Positions 2,482 to 64,000 of a stretch of DNA of 64,000 bases are shown here, piece after piece. Each line of letters opens with the position of its first letter. The stretch's first letter is position 1. The position numbers were made by a program, and so were the translations under genes. The notes under the pieces are model-generated. The model was not told the DNA's origin. It ran no database searches and saw nothing but the letters and a program-made list of their open reading frames with translations. This stretch comes from Ignavibacteriota bacterium (GTDB taxonomy: Bacteria > Bacteroidota > Ignavibacteria > Tepidaquicellales > Tepidaquicellaceae): the NCBI GenBank assembly GCA_016218085.1, contig JACREY010000007.1, positions 1-64,000 on the forward strand. The letters run 5' to 3'.

Positions 2482-2568
2482 GGAGAGGTGGCTGAGTGGT
2501 TGAAAGCGGCGGTCTCGAAAACCGTTATGGGGGCAACTCCATCCAGGGTTCGAATCCCTGCTTCTCCG
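2482..2568 (+). tRNA. tRNA-Ser (anticodon CGA)
   Basis: Eighty-seven bases folding as a class II tRNA. The 7-bp acceptor pairs 2482-2488 with 2561-2567 (one G-T pair), and base 73 is G as in serine tRNAs. The anticodon stem encloses loop C-T-CGA-A-A, there is a long variable arm, and the T arm loop is TTCGAAT between CAGGG and CCCTG. The 3' CCA is not encoded. It reads UCG codons. A terminator hairpin follows at once. Confidence 0.95.
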
Positions 2569-2570
2569 CA

Positions 2571-21290: not shown

Positions 21291-23339
21291 TTAAAAAGGT
21301 CCTATTTTACTCTTGCCGAAATTACTATTAAGTATCGGTAAATCATATCCATCTACAAAATTGTCACCGTTCAGATCAGCACTTTTATAATTATCATAGC
21401 CGAATTGCGGTTTGAATGCATCGTAGTCAAGCGGACTGACATAGCCGTCCTGGTTTATATCGCCTCCATAAAGTACCCACACAGAGCCGACCTGCTTCAT
21501 ATTATTTCCATAAGCTTTATTTGCATTATCAGTAAAGTTATATGAAACTGTATTATTCGTCTGGAAGAACATGGCAATCGAACTCCAGGTTTCAAGATGG
21601 TTTCTGTGTCTTATAATTATATAATAGCTTCCGGTGGTTGCTCTTGAGAAGCTGGTAAGACTTGCTGTTCCGTTTGCTCCCAAAACTGCAAGTGAAGTAT
21701 CACGGCCTGCATACGGGGAAACGTTCTGCGCAAGAATTATTTTAATTGTATCCGGAGTCTGAGTTGAGCCGTTATAGAAACCTTCAAGAAAAGCCGTAAG
21801 ATTTAAATTGAATGACTGAACAGTTCTGAAATTCCAGGTAGTTGAATAAGAGCCCTGGCCGCCGCCGTTTATTGAAGCTACTCTCCAGTAATAAACTGTA
21901 TAACCCTGAAGTACCCCGCTCGGGACTGTATAAGTCGATGCTCCGGTTACAACCGTATTGACAACCGTAGTATTAAATGTTTGTGATGTTGATATCTGAA
22001 TTCTATAACTTAATGCTCCTGATACATCAGTCCAGTCCATAACTGGTGTCAACGGAATGTCAACCGATGCATTTGGAGGTGAAACAAGAGTTGGGGCTAC
22101 AGGAGCTGCCTCAATGGTAGTAAAACTCCAGACCTGTGACCACTGTCCTGTACCGCCTGAATTGGTAGCATTTACTCTCCAGTAATAAGTTGTATTATTA
22201 GTAAACGAAGGTGTATTGTGAGTGTACTGGGAAGTACTTCCCGTCACCTGATTTACAAATGTAGTTCCGAAATTGGAACTTGTAGATATCTGTATTCTGT
22301 ATGAAGTTGCTCCAGGTACGCTGTTCCAGTCGAAAGTAATATTATTAATTGCAATTCCGACTGAGCCATCAGGCGGAGTAAGCAATAACGGAGCCGCCGG
22401 AGGAGCTATGCCGGTAGTAAAGCTCCATGCAGCTGACCAGGGTCCTGTACCGCCAGCGTTAGTTGCATTAACGTGCCACCAGTACTGAGTTGTACCGGAT
22501 AATGCGCCTAATGGAATTGTAAATAGTGAGTCCGTAGTATTTTCATTAACCACGAGAGCCGTGAATGAAGAATTCTGAGAAACCTGAACCTGATAGCTTG
22601 TTGCACCTGCTATCTTAAACCATCTCAGGGTAACGTTCACGGGAACATTAGTAGCACTGTTCGCCGGGAAAGAAAGAGTTGGTGCAATAGGTACGGCTGG
22701 AACAGTAGTAAAAGCAAACGGGTCAGACCAGTTGCTGGTTCCGCCTGAGTTTTGCGCATTTACCCTCCAGTAATACGTAGTGTTATTTGCCAGAATTCCG
22801 TTCTGGACCACATATCCCGAATTTACCAAACCTCCCACATCCAGCACTATCGGTGAAAATGAAGGAGAAGTTGAAATTTGAACCCTGTACTGCTGAGCGC
22901 CGGGAACGTCGTTCCAGTTCAGTGTTGGAGTAAGCGAAACATTAATCGAATTATTCGCCGGTGCGGACAGTACCGGTGGATTTGGAGCTACAATTGCCGT
23001 CGTGAAATGGAAAAAGCCGGAGTAGTTTCCCTGTCCGCTTCCATTTGCCGCGGCAACCCTCCAGTAATAATACGTATTACCCGTTAAAATCGCCTGGGTA
23101 ACAGTATATGTTGTTCCAGTAATATTATTTACATCCATCACGGTTGATGCACCCGTGAAAACCTGTAAATGATAATATGTGGCACCCGATGATGTACTCC
23201 ATTGAAATGTGGGAAACAGTGAAACGTTTATCGCATTGTCAGGAGGAGCAATCAGCGTAGGCGGTAAAGGTTGAGCATGTATTCCGCTTGCAACCATAAA
23301 TGCAAACAGAAATAAGAAGGAATAAAAAATTTTTCTCAT
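21291..23339 (-). CDS. Secreted fibronectin-type-III-repeat protein ending in a dockerin module
   Basis: A 682-residue protein. After the signal peptide come five repeats of about 95 residues (spanning about 25-510). Each has P-x-L-x-x-P-x-N-x-x-x-x-V, then W-x-x-V-x-G-A-x-x-Y-x-x-Q-V-S, T-x-Y-Y-W-R-V and W-S-x-x-W-x-F-T-T, the Fn3 pattern. A beta module of about 110 residues follows. The end holds two EF-like loops, D-I-N-Q-D-G-Y-V-S-P-L-D and D-L-N-G-D-N-F-V-D-G-Y-D, a type I dockerin. No T9SS tail follows, so its export or anchoring may rely on another protein. No enzyme domain is present. Confidence 0.75.
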   Translation of the reverse strand: MRKIFYSFLFLFAFMVASGIHAQPLPPTLIAPPDNAINVSLFPTFQWSTSSGATYYHLQVFTGASTVMDVNNITGTTYTVTQAILTGNTYYYWRVAAANGSGQGNYSGFFHFTTAIVAPNPPVLSAPANNSINVSLTPTLNWNDVPGAQQYRVQISTSPSFSPIVLDVGGLVNSGYVVQNGILANNTTYYWRVNAQNSGGTSNWSDPFAFTTVPAVPIAPTLSFPANSATNVPVNVTLRWFKIAGATSYQVQVSQNSSFTALVVNENTTDSLFTIPLGALSGTTQYWWHVNATNAGGTGPWSAAWSFTTGIAPPAAPLLLTPPDGSVGIAINNITFDWNSVPGATSYRIQISTSSNFGTTFVNQVTGSTSQYTHNTPSFTNNTTYYWRVNATNSGGTGQWSQVWSFTTIEAAPVAPTLVSPPNASVDIPLTPVMDWTDVSGALSYRIQISTSQTFNTTVVNTVVTGASTYTVPSGVLQGYTVYYWRVASINGGGQGSYSTTWNFRTVQSFNLNLTAFLEGFYNGSTQTPDTIKIILAQNVSPYAGRDTSLAVLGANGTASLTSFSRATTGSYYIIIRHRNHLETWSSIAMFFQTNNTVSYNFTDNANKAYGNNMKQVGSVWVLYGGDINQDGYVSPLDYDAFKPQFGYDNYKSADLNGDNFVDGYDLPILNSNFGKSKIGPF

Positions 23340-23514
23340 GTTAATAATCCTCTGTGATTATTTTTGAATTTGTGTTAATTAAACTTGTTAATTATTTTTT
23401 TTGAAATCACCCTTTTTTGCAATCTCAAAAATTACCCTTTTCCATCTTCATTACCACAATTTAATAAATAAGTTATATAAAATCAATTTCGACTAGCATT
23501 GCCAAAAAATAGTT
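23340..23514. other. Gene-free AT-rich stretch above the dockerin gene
   Basis: These bases must include the minus-strand promoter of the dockerin gene, but I see no convincing box. An inverted repeat, TGCCAAA-N6-TTTGGCA (23500-23519), runs into the -24 element of the plus-strand sigma-54 promoter. No ORF of note is present on either strand. Confidence 0.5.
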
Positions 23515-23530
23515 TGGCACGACAATTGCA
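23515..23530 (+). promoter_or_regulatory. Consensus sigma-54 promoter with no protein gene downstream
   Basis: TGGCACGACAATTGCA matches the sigma-54 consensus TGGCACG-N4-TTGCW at every fixed position, and GG (23516-23517) and GC (23528-23529) are spaced by exactly 10 bases. It points right, away from the dockerin gene. Transcription would start near 23541. The next plus-strand protein gene is more than 8 kb away, so the target appears to be a non-coding RNA. Confidence 0.65.
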
Positions 23531-23540
23531 TATCATCTGC

Positions 23541-23775
23541 TTATTTTAAAAAATTGCTTTTTTACTTTATTTGATTTGTCCAAATATTAATGTCAACATA
23601 TATAATAATTAGCAAAATGAAAACATAAATTAAATTACTGTAAGTTTTCAAATCTCCCCGGATAAGAATTATGGAATTTCTTTGATACAGTTTGTTATAT
23701 AAAATTGATTCAATAATAAGCATTATTGCCGTAAACCCGTTCAGGTGAACACGTTTAGCAAGAATTTTTCTCTTT
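23541..23775 (+). ncRNA. Candidate sigma-54-dependent small RNA
   Basis: This is inferred, not recognised. A consensus sigma-54 promoter lies 11 bases upstream. There is no ORF longer than about 12 codons on this strand within the span. The span ends in a long imperfect hairpin (23726-23761) followed by GAATTTTTCTCTTTTTT, which can act as a terminator. The transcript would be about 230 bases. It matches no RNA family I know. The alternative is that the promoter match is a chance hit in an AT-rich spacer, though a full match by chance is improbable. Confidence 0.35.
23726..23761 (+). terminator. Long imperfect hairpin with T-rich tail
   Basis: TTGC, TAAAC and GTTC on the left arm pair in order with GAAC, GTTTA and GCAA on the right arm, with a 2x2 internal bulge and an AGGT loop. 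A T-rich run follows on the plus strand. It is a plausible 3' end for the transcript from 23515, or an RNA structure with its own role. Confidence 0.45.
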
Positions 23776-23804
23776 TTTAAGTTTTTTAAATCGGGATTTA
23801 TAAA

Positions 23805-23838
23805 AAAAGGGGCTGTGCTATGTGGCGCAGCCCCTTTT
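23805..23838 (-). terminator. Intrinsic terminator of the M1 gene at 23865
   Basis: Stem AAAAGGGGCTG pairs with CAGCCCCTTTT; the next base pair is mismatched, followed by GC-GC. On the minus strand seven T follow the stem, and on the plus strand A follows, so it mainly serves the minus strand. Confidence 0.8.
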
Positions 23839-23864: not shown

Positions 23865-25880
23865 CTATTTCACGAGCATCATTTTTTTAACTTCTTTGAA
23901 ATTATCGGTTTCAAGCCTGTACAAGTATACACCTGATGGAAGATTTAAACCATTGAATGAAACAGAATATTTTCCCATAGTTTTGAATTCATTCACAAGA
24001 GTTTTTACTTCTTTTCCAAGTAAATCGTACACTACCAATTTTACGTTTGAATTTTTCGGTACGTCATAATTTATATTTGTTACCGGGTTAAACGGATTTG
24101 GCTCGTTTTGATGCAGTTTGAACTCGACGGGCATTTGACCTGAGCCTTCGTCAATTCCCATAGTCAGGGATGCAGTTTTGATAACAATCATATTATTTGG
24201 GTCGAACACAACTGCAGTTGGTTGTCTGTTGAAATAAAATGAGAATAATTGATTATTTGTATTATTCATAACCCTGACAGTAGTATCAGAGCCAGTTGCA
24301 AAACTAAATTTTAATTCAATCGGAATCGGGAAAAATCCTGTCTGAGTCTGCTTTGCAAGGAAATTGATTCTCCATTGTCCTCCTCCGAGATTTGTAAAAT
24401 TATATCCGTTTTGATAAAGGGGATGATTGGGCTGATAAATCCAGGCATTGTAGAACCAGGTCAAGTCCTGTCCGGTAACTGATGTCATTTTAGCAAAGAA
24501 CTCCGGTATAGTTGCATTCTTCAGTTTGAAGTTTACAGTATCGGTTGCATAAGCTTTAATTCCCCTGAAAAATGCGGAATCGCCAAGTGTGTATCTCAAA
24601 AGATGAAGTACACAGGATCCTTTGCAGTAAGTTACTGCATAATTAAAAAGTGTATTTGCATTAGGTGTTGTCACATCCCAGGAGGGAACTGAGATTGCCC
24701 ATCCCGGATTTGAGCTTAAATACGAGCTAGCATCACTATTAATCATTGTCTTATAAGCGGAATAACCACCAGTCCTTTCAACCCAGTAAGATTCGTTCCA
24801 GGTTGCAAAGCCTTCATTAAGCCAGATATTTGACCAGGATGCACAGGTTATCATATCTCCGAACCACTGGTGCGCGTATTCGTGCAGTGTCGTGTTTTCA
24901 TTCCAGGAATTAATTGTAGTTAAAGTCTGGTTTTCCATTCCACCCCAAGTAAATCCAGCACTGTTAGGAACATAACAGAAACCGTTTTTCTCAAAAGGCA
25001 TTTCTCCATAAGCGGCAGAGAAATATGTTGTTGCTGTAGGCAATATAGCTGCTATAGAAGAACTGTTTGCAGTTGTAGGTGAATACAGTCTTAACGGAAC
25101 GCTGTCAATCGGATTAGATGGTCTGTGCCAGTATACTATGTTAATTGTATAACCGACTTTTGATGTCATAACCACAAGATAAGTTGAAACCGGATCCCTG
25201 CTAATCCAGTGATAATATACTGAATCGCCTGTAACCGTAGAATCGTTCAATCTGCCGTTGCTTCCCAATCTTACTGCAAGTGATAAAGGAACTTTTGCAG
25301 TCAAATCCAGCGTGGCCTTATCAGAGGGCCTGTCCCAGCAGGGGAACCAGCCGCGTGCACCTTCAGGTTCTGCATCTGTAAAAATATATCCAGTAGAGCC
25401 GCTGTTATAGAATGAAGCATCCGTAACGTTGTTATGCCTGTAATTTATCTTTATATCGACTATTTCACCGACATTATAAACCCTGTTAAGGGTAACGGTT
25501 AAAATGTTTGATGTATGGGTAAAAGTCAACGGTGTCCCGCTCATCAGTCTTATAGAATCTATCGTAAGCGATGTATTGTTAGCATTAAGATATATGCTGC
25601 TAAGTGTCGAGTCAACCCTGAACGTCATTATGTTAGATGCCTTAAAATTTTTCGGGTAAGGACTGAAATAGCAAGAGTATAAATCAACATTCAGTTTATA
25701 ATTAAGTACATCATAGGAATGTCTTGGTGTATTTGGTGAAACCTGTGTATAAAAATCCGGATTCGTAATTTTTGTTCTTTTCATTGAACAATATTCCGAG
25801 CCTCTCATATGGGAATGGTCCTGTGCAAAAAGTACATTTCCCAATGAAAGCAGAAATACAACAATAAGGAGTTTTTTCAT
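23865..25880 (-). CDS. Secreted M1 metallopeptidase with T9SS tail
   Basis: A 671-residue protein. Signal peptide to about residue 20, then the M1 N-terminal beta domain. The exopeptidase motif is G-G-M-E-N (313-317), the zinc site H333-E-Y-A-H337, and the third ligand Glu356 in W-L-N-E-G-F-A-T. The Tyr in HEYAH replaces the more usual Leu without touching the ligands. A helical domain ends near 540, and the T9SS domain (E-P-N-P-F-N-P to M-M-L-V-K) fills the last 80 residues. It acts as an aminopeptidase on the cell surface or outside. It is a single-gene unit with its own terminator, and the shared 16-mer lies 77 bases above the start. Confidence 0.9.
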   Translation of the reverse strand: MKKLLIVVFLLSLGNVLFAQDHSHMRGSEYCSMKRTKITNPDFYTQVSPNTPRHSYDVLNYKLNVDLYSCYFSPYPKNFKASNIMTFRVDSTLSSIYLNANNTSLTIDSIRLMSGTPLTFTHTSNILTVTLNRVYNVGEIVDIKINYRHNNVTDASFYNSGSTGYIFTDAEPEGARGWFPCWDRPSDKATLDLTAKVPLSLAVRLGSNGRLNDSTVTGDSVYYHWISRDPVSTYLVVMTSKVGYTINIVYWHRPSNPIDSVPLRLYSPTTANSSSIAAILPTATTYFSAAYGEMPFEKNGFCYVPNSAGFTWGGMENQTLTTINSWNENTTLHEYAHQWFGDMITCASWSNIWLNEGFATWNESYWVERTGGYSAYKTMINSDASSYLSSNPGWAISVPSWDVTTPNANTLFNYAVTYCKGSCVLHLLRYTLGDSAFFRGIKAYATDTVNFKLKNATIPEFFAKMTSVTGQDLTWFYNAWIYQPNHPLYQNGYNFTNLGGGQWRINFLAKQTQTGFFPIPIELKFSFATGSDTTVRVMNNTNNQLFSFYFNRQPTAVVFDPNNMIVIKTASLTMGIDEGSGQMPVEFKLHQNEPNPFNPVTNINYDVPKNSNVKLVVYDLLGKEVKTLVNEFKTMGKYSVSFNGLNLPSGVYLYRLETDNFKEVKKMMLVK

Positions 25881-39291: not shown

Positions 39292-39681
39292 AATATCCAT
39301 TCCGTTTTAGGCAATCGCGCAGGTCCGCTGCGAGGCGGGCAGTGAGGAAAGTCCGGACTCCATAGAAGCAGGGATGCCGGGAGAAATTCCCGGGTTTTTC
39401 AGGCGGCAACGTCGAAAGACAGAAAGTGTTACAGAAAAGCAAACTTCCCCACACGGGGTAAAGGTGAAACGGCAGGGTAAGAGCCTACCATCCGCAGAGC
39501 AATCTGCGGGATTGACAAACCTCATCCGGAGTAAGACCATGTATAGGGAGTAGAAGTTCTGCTTGCTTTATAAGCTCCCGGGGTAGGTCGCAAGAATCTT
39601 TTAAGTAATTAAAAGATAAGATAAATGATTGCCATCCGCCACGGCGGATACAGAATCCGGCTTATTAAACGGAATGGATAT
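39292..39681 (+). ncRNA. rnpB: RNase P RNA (class A)
   Basis: The RNA subunit of the tRNA 5'-processing ribozyme. The 5' core GAGGAAAGTCCGGACTCC, the central AACGGCAGGGTAAGAG and the 3' core, which contains ATAAATGATTGCC and ACAGAATCCGGCTTA, are all present. The ends pair in P1: 39292-39309 with 39665-39681. The variable hairpin before the 3' core is CCGCCACGGCGG, matching the REP-like palindrome near 2640. It follows the zinc-ribbon gene on the same strand and converges on nadA. Confidence 0.96.
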
Positions 39682-61619: not shown

Positions 61620-62993
61620 TTACTTATTTTTCATTCCCCACTTCTCAAGTCTATATCTCAGATTCCTTTCAGAAATTCCAAGAATTTTCGATGCACGAAG
61701 CTGATTATTATTTGTTTTTTTAAGAGCGTTTACAACAAGTTTTTTTTCCAGTATTTCAACCTGTTCGGGCAATGCCGAATTTACATTTGTCTCCAAAGTT
61801 GTTTCGTTAAAATCAAATTCGGAAAGTTGTAATGGTAAATCGGCAGTGGCAATAACATCTCCTCTTGAAAGCACAATTGAATGATGCACAATATTTTCGA
61901 GTTCCCTGATATTTCCCGGGTAATTATATTTCATAAGAACGTCAGTTGCTTCGCGGGAAAATTCAATATTCTTTTTACTTGTTTCAGAGATATATTTTTC
62001 CTTAAAATGATTAATCAAATGAATAATATCCTCTTTTCTTTCCCTAAGCGGAGGAATTAATACGGACACAACATTAATCCTGTAATACAAATCTTCCCTG
62101 AACTTCCCTTCCCTGATAAGTTCTTCCAAGTTTTTATTTGTTGCAGTAATCATTCTTACATCGACATCAATAGTTTGAGTACCTCCTACTCTTTCAAACT
62201 GTTCTTCCTGCAAAACTCTGAGCAGTTTTACCTGTGTAGATAAAGGCAGGTCACCGATTTCATCCAGAAAAAGCGTGCCACCGTCTGCAATTTCAAATCT
62301 GCCTCTTCGCTGTTTATCCGCACCGGTAAATGCTCCTTTCTCATGTCCGAAAAGTTCACTTTCCAGAAGGTTTTCATTTAATGCGGCGCAGTTTACCGCC
62401 ACGAATGGTTTTTCCTTTCTCTGGCTGGAATAATGTATAGCTTTTGCCAATACCTCCTTGCCTGTTCCGCTTTCCCCTCTAAGCAAAACAGTCGCCTTGC
62501 TTTCTGCCACGCGCAAAGCAGTACTCAGAATTTTCTCCATCTTATCCGAGTATGCAACAATCCCGGAAATTTTATTTTTATCCTGAAGCTGTTCTTTCAG
62601 CATTTTATTTTCGGAAATCAAATGCATTCTTTCGGTTATTCTTTTTATAATCATATCGAGCTCATCAAGATCAACAGGTTTTGTCAGGTAATCGAATGCA
62701 CCTTCTTTCATAGCTTTTACTGCATTTTCAATAGTTCCGAAGGCAGTAACAATCACAACGGCAATTTCAGGATTTCTTTCCTTTAGTTTAATAAGAAGTT
62801 CAATTCCGTTCATATCCGGCATCCTGAAATCAGAAAGCACGATATCAATCAGGTTTGCATCCGTAATCTTCAGCGCCTCAGTTCCCGATGCAGCTTCAAA
62901 AATCGCATATCCTTTCTGTTTCAAGTAACCTGACAGAATCAATCGCTGGGATTGCTCATCATCCGCTATTAAAATACTATATTTTATACTCAT
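61620..62993 (-). CDS. Sigma-54-dependent response regulator (NtrC/ZraR family)
   Basis: A 457-residue activator. The receiver domain (1-120) has D11/D12 and the phosphorylated Asp55 in V-L-S-D-F-R-M-P-D. The AAA+ domain has Walker A G-E-S-G-T-G-K-E, the sigma-54-contact loop G-A-F-T-G-A in H-E-K-G-A-F-T-G-A-D, and Walker B G-T-L-F-L-D-E-I-G. A Fis-type helix-turn-helix ends the protein (L-R-A-S-K-I-L-G-I-S-E-R-N-L-R-Y). It lies 8 bases after the kinase gene. The two small genes after it in the direction of transcription have sigma-54 promoters and are the likely targets. Confidence 0.95.
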   Translation of the reverse strand: MSIKYSILIADDEQSQRLILSGYLKQKGYAIFEAASGTEALKITDANLIDIVLSDFRMPDMNGIELLIKLKERNPEIAVVIVTAFGTIENAVKAMKEGAFDYLTKPVDLDELDMIIKRITERMHLISENKMLKEQLQDKNKISGIVAYSDKMEKILSTALRVAESKATVLLRGESGTGKEVLAKAIHYSSQRKEKPFVAVNCAALNENLLESELFGHEKGAFTGADKQRRGRFEIADGGTLFLDEIGDLPLSTQVKLLRVLQEEQFERVGGTQTIDVDVRMITATNKNLEELIREGKFREDLYYRINVVSVLIPPLRERKEDIIHLINHFKEKYISETSKKNIEFSREATDVLMKYNYPGNIRELENIVHHSIVLSRGDVIATADLPLQLSEFDFNETTLETNVNSALPEQVEILEKKLVVNALKKTNNNQLRASKILGISERNLRYRLEKWGMKNK

Positions 62994-63001
62994 AATTTTG
63001 T

Positions 63002-64000
63002 TTATAATTCTATTGTAAATTTTGTGCCTGAATTAATATTACTTTCTGCCTTGATGTGTCCGTGATGTCTTGAAATAATCTGTTGTACAATGCTAAGCCC
63101 CAATCCGGTACCTTTTGGTTTGGTAGTGTAATATAAGTTAAAAATGTTATCGATGTTTTCACGGCTTATACCTTCGCCATTATCTTGCACTTCAAAAATT
63201 CTTTTTCCGTTCCTGGACCTGTAAGTAATTGTTATTTTTCCCTGAGAACTCACCGCATCGACAGCATTCTGCACGAGGTTAATAAAGACCTGTTTCATTT
63301 GTTCCGTATCAATACTGATTATATCCGAATTTAATTCAATAATTTCGAGTTCAACACCCTTTTCATTTGTCATTAGGCCGCAAATGGATTTCACTTCATT
63401 CAGAAAGTCAGAAGATGAAATTTCGGTTTCATTAAGTTTCGGAGGTCTAGCAAACCTAAGAAACTGTTCAATAATATTATTCACTCTCGAGGATTCTGAT
63501 TTTAAAACGCCTGCAAGGGTTTTGAACTCATCCGGCTGCATAACATCTGAATTTTCTTTTTCAAACCTCTGAGCAATCATATTAATTGAGTTAAGCGGAT
63601 TTCTCACTTCGTGAGCCACTCCCGATGCAAGCTCACCCATAGCAATGAGTCTGTCATTCATTTGCTTCTGTTTTTCGGCATTTTTAACCAAAGTTATATC
63701 ATCCAATACAATATTGAAAGCCGAGAAATTACCGTTATTATCCGTAATTACTGTTGTATTTGCAGAAACTATCATTTCATCTTTACCTTCCTGTGAAATA
63801 ACAAACTCAAAATTTCTTACGTTTTCCTTTTTATCAATCAGTTCCGATATTACTTTCAGTTCCGCGAATACATACTTGTATTTTTCACCTGTAATATTTT
63901 TTTGTTTTAGTCCGAAAAAGTTTTCTGCATTTTTATTGAAGATTTCTATCTCATCATTCCTGTTTACTGTTATGACTGCTTGCGACATATTGTCGAGTAT
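63002..64000 (-). CDS. PAS-domain sensor histidine kinase, 5' end outside window
   Basis: The frame is open through the last base, reading I-L-D-N before the Met at 63988, so the true start is beyond the window. The visible part has a PAS domain (about 1-115) beginning S-Q-A-V-I-T-V-N-R, then the HisKA box with phospho-His in G-E-L-A-S-G-V-A-H-E-V-R-N-P-L-N-S. The HATPase domain has N box Q-N-A-V-D-A-V, G1 D-N-G-E-G-I and G2 G-T-G-L-G-L-S-I-V. Any membrane or sensor region is outside. It is the partner of the NtrC-type regulator (8-base gap). Confidence 0.93.
   Translation of the reverse strand: MLDNMSQAVITVNRNDEIEIFNKNAENFFGLKQKNITGEKYKYVFAELKVISELIDKKENVRNFEFVISQEGKDEMIVSANTTVITDNNGNFSAFNIVLDDITLVKNAEKQKQMNDRLIAMGELASGVAHEVRNPLNSINMIAQRFEKENSDVMQPDEFKTLAGVLKSESSRVNNIIEQFLRFARPPKLNETEISSSDFLNEVKSICGLMTNEKGVELEIIELNSDIISIDTEQMKQVFINLVQNAVDAVSSQGKITITYRSRNGKRIFEVQDNGEGISRENIDNIFNLYYTTKPKGTGLGLSIVQQIISRHHGHIKAESNINSGTKFTIEL

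Follow-up and report, generated by a model that had tools for sequence, protein, structure and literature searches.

The 64-kb stretch of DNA that was analysed (the window) contains a spacer of 525 bp and 26% GC between a gene for a secreted fibronectin-III repeat / dockerin protein and a gene for a T9SS-tailed M1 peptidase (Table 1). The adjacent gaps in the ORF list are about 20-160 bp. We identified in the spacer a sigma-54 -24/-12 element, TGGCACGACAATTGCA, which has zero mismatches against TGGCACRNNNNTTGCW, shows the TGG-N9-TGC spacing and is the sole exact match in the window. The first-pass annotation had reported the full consensus match, the two flanking genes and an ORF-free strand downstream, and all three were recovered: no plus-strand ORF of at least 20 aa lies wholly inside 23541-23800, and the only frame of that length there is a 53-aa ORF on the minus strand. 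Genes for a class A RNase P RNA (39298-39680, plus strand) and a tRNA-Ser (cga) (2482-2569, plus strand) were also identified in the window.

The spacer also carries a sigma-70-like promoter (TTGATT-N17-TAAATT), presumably that of the dockerin gene, as judged from its consensus match. Its hexamers and spacing are identical in the window's genome (G000), a sister genome (G001) and a member of a third genus (G005). It stands back to back with the sigma-54 element, about 28 bp away. Because this minus-strand promoter lies in the same conserved block, we regard the sigma-54 element as one half of a divergent promoter pair.

Table 1. Coordinates, strands and supporting evidence for features in and around the dockerin/M1 spacer (positions in the window).
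Feature	Coordinates	Strand	Evidence
Fibronectin-III repeat / dockerin secreted protein	21291..23339	-	fn3 and Dockerin_1 domains; divergent from the sigma-54 element
Block alignable with sister genome G001	23340..23530		Dockerin 5' region, dockerin promoter and sigma-54 site
Sigma-70-like promoter TTGATT-N17-TAAATT, presumed dockerin promoter	23458..23486	-	Consensus match
Sigma-54 -24/-12 promoter element TGGCACGACAATTGCA	23515..23530	+	Exact consensus match; orthologous TGGCATGGAAGTTGCA in G001
Predicted transcribed, untranslated, non-conserved stretch	23541..23804	+	No ORF; no similarity in G001 or G005; fold z +0.79
Hairpin of the first-pass annotation	23726..23761	+	Chance-level stability; not conserved
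Stem-loop terminator after the M1 gene	23805..23838		Minus-strand U-tract; possible weaker plus-strand stop
M1 peptidase with Por_Secre_tail (T9SS tail)	23865..25880	-	Domains; convergent with the predicted transcript

An exact sigma-54 match is by itself little proof of a promoter, since base composition predicts about 0.8 matches to the strict pattern (TGGCAC) and 2-4.5 to looser ones across the whole 3.3-Mb genome (per 64 kb, 0.016 strict matches and 0.04 with TGGCAY). The element could thus be a chance consensus match in an AT-rich spacer. However, none of 200 spacer shuffles reached the score of the site.

The genome encodes an RpoN DNA-binding domain (E 7.7e-55) and about eleven strong domains of enhancer-binding proteins (bEBPs, the activators of sigma-54), one of them within the window. 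The latter belongs to an NtrC-type response regulator with a GAFTGA motif (61620-62993, minus strand), a candidate activator. A PAS histidine kinase (63002-63988, minus strand) adjoins it. Across the family set of 29 genomes, TGGCAYRNNNNTTGCW has 114 exact sites, compared with 14 for a reversed control (about 8-fold, from table sums). The pattern TGGCAYN5TTGCW has nine exact sites in the window's genome. An ORF starts 13-157 bp downstream of eight of the nine; the window site alone has no gene behind it. The genes behind the other sites include several for secreted proteins, as well as an Hsp20 gene followed by DnaK.

Comparison with relatives relied on one sister species (G001, record PMIW01000054.1, 'Ignavibacteriae bacterium isolate fen_1279'), and both key genomes are draft assemblies. 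At the same position of its dockerin/M1 spacer, the sister has TGGCATGGAAGTTGCA as the ortholog of the sigma-54 site. The two sites differ by four substitutions, all at degenerate (Y, N) positions of the consensus. The probability that four of four differences fall at free positions is about 0.003-0.02, depending on the choice of positions, an indicative figure given a similarity-seeded alignment. Homology between the two spacers extends from the dockerin start codon to the sigma-54 site and ends right behind it; downstream, similarity between the window and the sister is at the level of shuffled sequence.

The order of the M1 and dockerin genes is also kept in G005, which shares AAAATCAATTTCNAC and TGGCAT. 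Its plus-strand site, TGGCATTCTATTTGTA, has TTGT at -12, so that the -12 element is broken by loss of the GC, and the sequence downstream has no similarity to that of the window. The promoter thus behaves as a conserved element, kept in the sister and degenerate in G005. The combination of the upstream box with the -24 pattern was found in these three genomes and in none of the other 26 of the family. A search of the whole spacer against 59 genomes returned, apart from the sister, AT-rich chance matches only. The G005 spacer (contig C154; L145 1907-2569) additionally contains a near-consensus sigma-54 site facing the dockerin gene, TGGAACAGAATTTGCA, 16 bp from the degenerate plus-strand site.

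A chance match appears very unlikely given the shuffles, the sister's retained ortholog (substituted at free positions only) and a set of sites in the window's genome that is clearly gene-associated. We conclude from these comparisons that the element is probably a sigma-54 promoter. The promoter claimed in the first-pass annotation is thus supported by the presence of rpoN and bEBP genes, by the enrichment of the motif in the family and by the sister's ortholog.

Elsewhere in the family we examined the loci of 28 other exact sites. Those without an ORF of at least 60 aa within 200 bp are either inside coding frames or followed by an ORF that is somewhat farther away or shorter. A plausible close gene is missing only at the window site and its ortholog in the sister. 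We rejected the idea that the other family sites without an ORF represent a class of small RNAs, as these are intragenic or have an ORF slightly further on. No downstream sequence common to them and the window site was found beyond a 13-base chance match.

Sigma-54-dependent small RNAs are known in other bacteria (e.g., GlmY; PMC3162934, PMC6075780), and the first-pass annotation proposed one here, a transcript of about 230 bases with the hairpin of Table 1 as its natural 3' end. Such an RNA, limited to the species or genus, is consistent with the conserved promoter, the missing ORF, the unusually long spacer and a terminator at about 300 nt. However, the hairpin has a predicted energy of -8.3 kcal/mol where shuffles average -7.7 (z -0.27), and 80 of 200 shuffles are as good; its role as a natural 3' end is not confirmed. 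If the start site is placed from the -12 position, transcription would begin at about 23541 and the RNA would be about 300 nt long, given that the strong stem-loop (paired in both folds) is located farther downstream, just past the M1 stop (23865). The longer U-tract of this stem-loop is on the minus (M1) strand and the plus strand has no long U-tract; the structure belongs mainly to the M1 gene.

Structure in the predicted transcript body (23541-23795) is unremarkable, with a fold at or below chance (z +0.79). The z of -2.35 for a longer stretch is due to the included stem-loop. No Rfam family passes the gathering and E-value thresholds; the matches are weak and far below them, and several are to the terminator stem. 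Conservation of both promoter and hairpin in related genomes had been put forward as a check, and of the two only the promoter is kept; the hairpin and the remaining downstream sequence are not. Neither comparison with the sister and G005 nor folding revealed a conserved RNA, in sequence or in structure, behind the promoter. A trans-acting small RNA is unsupported, because neither sequence nor structure is retained in the sister, where the transcript would also include a broken protein-coding fragment. Thus the small RNA part of the earlier proposal fares poorly on hairpin stability, Rfam matches and the state of the sister locus, and we consider it improbable. We regard as equally improbable its wider form, in which a genus-restricted, fast-evolving, sigma-54-driven non-coding transcript, running divergently from the dockerin gene of this Ignavibacteria-like bacterium, would link RpoN control to production of extracellular dockerin and T9SS proteins. 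The locus resembles GlmY of enterobacteria in having a sigma-54-type promoter and no ORF, but lacks any match to it in sequence or structure, and its downstream region is not conserved even inside the genus. The Qrr small RNAs of vibrios likewise have an intergenic sigma-54-type promoter; unlike them, the window region has no Rfam match and no conserved RNA.

The protein-coding fragment of the sister starts on the plus strand about 6 bp after the sigma-54 site and encodes part of a T9SS C-terminal domain (CTD). It is decayed, being broken by a stop and frameshifts. Its pieces match Pfam Por_Secre_tail (E 0.0017), and at the DNA level it matches an intact CTD gene of G005 (E 1e-22). In two further genomes (G006 and G008) a divergent gene for an M28 peptidase flanks the dockerin ortholog, and in G008 this gene is intact and T9SS-tailed. 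The M28 peptidase was considered as a candidate for the lost gene, but the sister's remnant resembles another CTD far more (score 131 to a G005 gene versus 47 to the G008 M28 gene). The retention of an M28 relative elsewhere in the window's genome was also weighed against it. No sigma-54 site was found in the dockerin-M28 spacers of G006 and G008. Behind the window promoter there is no recognisable gene remnant, in none of the genomes examined is this promoter followed by an intact gene, and the G005 spacer, with the same M1/dockerin synteny, contains no gene. As the G005 spacer is also gene-free, the CTD fragment of the sister may be a later arrival. At the sister locus (L084; contig C221, 23810-27959) the M1 peptidase is present twice in tandem; the copies share 66% and 80% identity with the M1 peptidase of the window, which has one copy here.

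The simplest account of the empty downstream region is that the gene served by the promoter is gone. We therefore infer gene loss in the window's lineage and favour, with about even confidence, an orphaned divergent sigma-54 promoter whose residual RNA is an untranslated run-out. The sigma-54 site would be a genuine promoter, or would have been one until recently, pointing away from the adjoining housekeeping promoter of the dockerin gene. The plus-strand gene that it first served, which probably encoded a protein exported by the T9SS, would have been lost or replaced. Once a bEBP has opened the complex, RpoN polymerase would still start near 23541 and produce at most an untranslated RNA of about 300 nt, ending at the terminator of the M1 gene and having no conserved function as an RNA.

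This account draws on the gene association of the other sites in the genome, the end of homology at the site, the decayed T9SS tail in the sister and the M28 peptidase gene that diverges from the dockerin ortholog in G006 and G008. It is weakened because no genome was found in which the promoter precedes an intact gene and because the spacer of G005 is gene-free. The distance of the sister's remnant from the G008 M28 gene and the absence of a sigma-54 site from the G006 and G008 spacers weaken it as well. In addition, the sigma-54 element seems to be under selection, which is not expected of a dead promoter and weighs against orphaning. Nevertheless, a promoter that has lost its gene is more likely than a new regulatory RNA.

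Another possibility is that the element acts in cis on the dockerin gene. By binding or firing, sigma-54 holoenzyme would then modulate the adjacent sigma-70 promoter through occlusion or supercoiling, and the RNA would be irrelevant. The pattern of conservation suits this possibility, since a block that holds two back-to-back promoter elements and ends after the sigma-54 site is expected if the binding element alone matters. The G005 spacer, in which the plus-strand site lacks the -12 GC, also accords with cis regulation in having a dockerin-facing site, which none of 200 shuffles matched. In E. coli, sigma-54 is documented to repress sigma-70 promoters close by (PMC4551910). However, in those E. 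coli cases for which the mechanism is clear, the site overlaps the sigma-70 promoter, whereas the predicted core footprints at the window locus abut and do not overlap. We consider cis regulation unlikely overall.

An orphaned promoter would be of a kind that is already known. Intergenic 'outside antisense' sigma-54 sites with no nearby co-oriented gene occur in E. coli (PMC4591121), as do repressive sites (PMC4551910). Like these, the window site is an intergenic consensus match with no appropriate close gene and with a sigma-70 promoter as neighbour; unlike them, for which binding was demonstrated by ChIP, it is a predicted site. If alive, the element connects a secreted dockerin protein with control by RpoN. 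If orphaned, it shows that a perfect promoter without an ORF can pass for a small RNA gene.

Our literature search found no sigma-54 study for the lineage of the window. Gene-associated sigma-54 promoters of genes for extracytoplasmic and exterior functions were described by Francke et al. (2011; PMC3162934). The sites in the window's genome share the -24/-12 consensus with these, and several of those outside the window precede genes for secreted proteins; the window site differs in having no gene behind it. Two exact sites, one in the window's genome (L029 1501-1854; G000:C21:52024) and one in another genus (L188 1501-1868; G003:C130:36786), are 35-40 bp before genes for homologous proteins of 101 and 104 aa. 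These resemble a stand-alone T9SS C-terminal domain and have no obvious signal peptide. Several genera of the family also have exact sites 46-63 bp before Hsp20-like genes (L023, L175, L181, L182 and L187), which suggests a conserved small heat-shock gene under predicted sigma-54 control. The 27 exact sites of the G006 genome far exceed the numbers in its relatives. Many of the 27 read TGGCAC(G/A)ATATTTGCA, and the regulon of G006 is possibly expanded.
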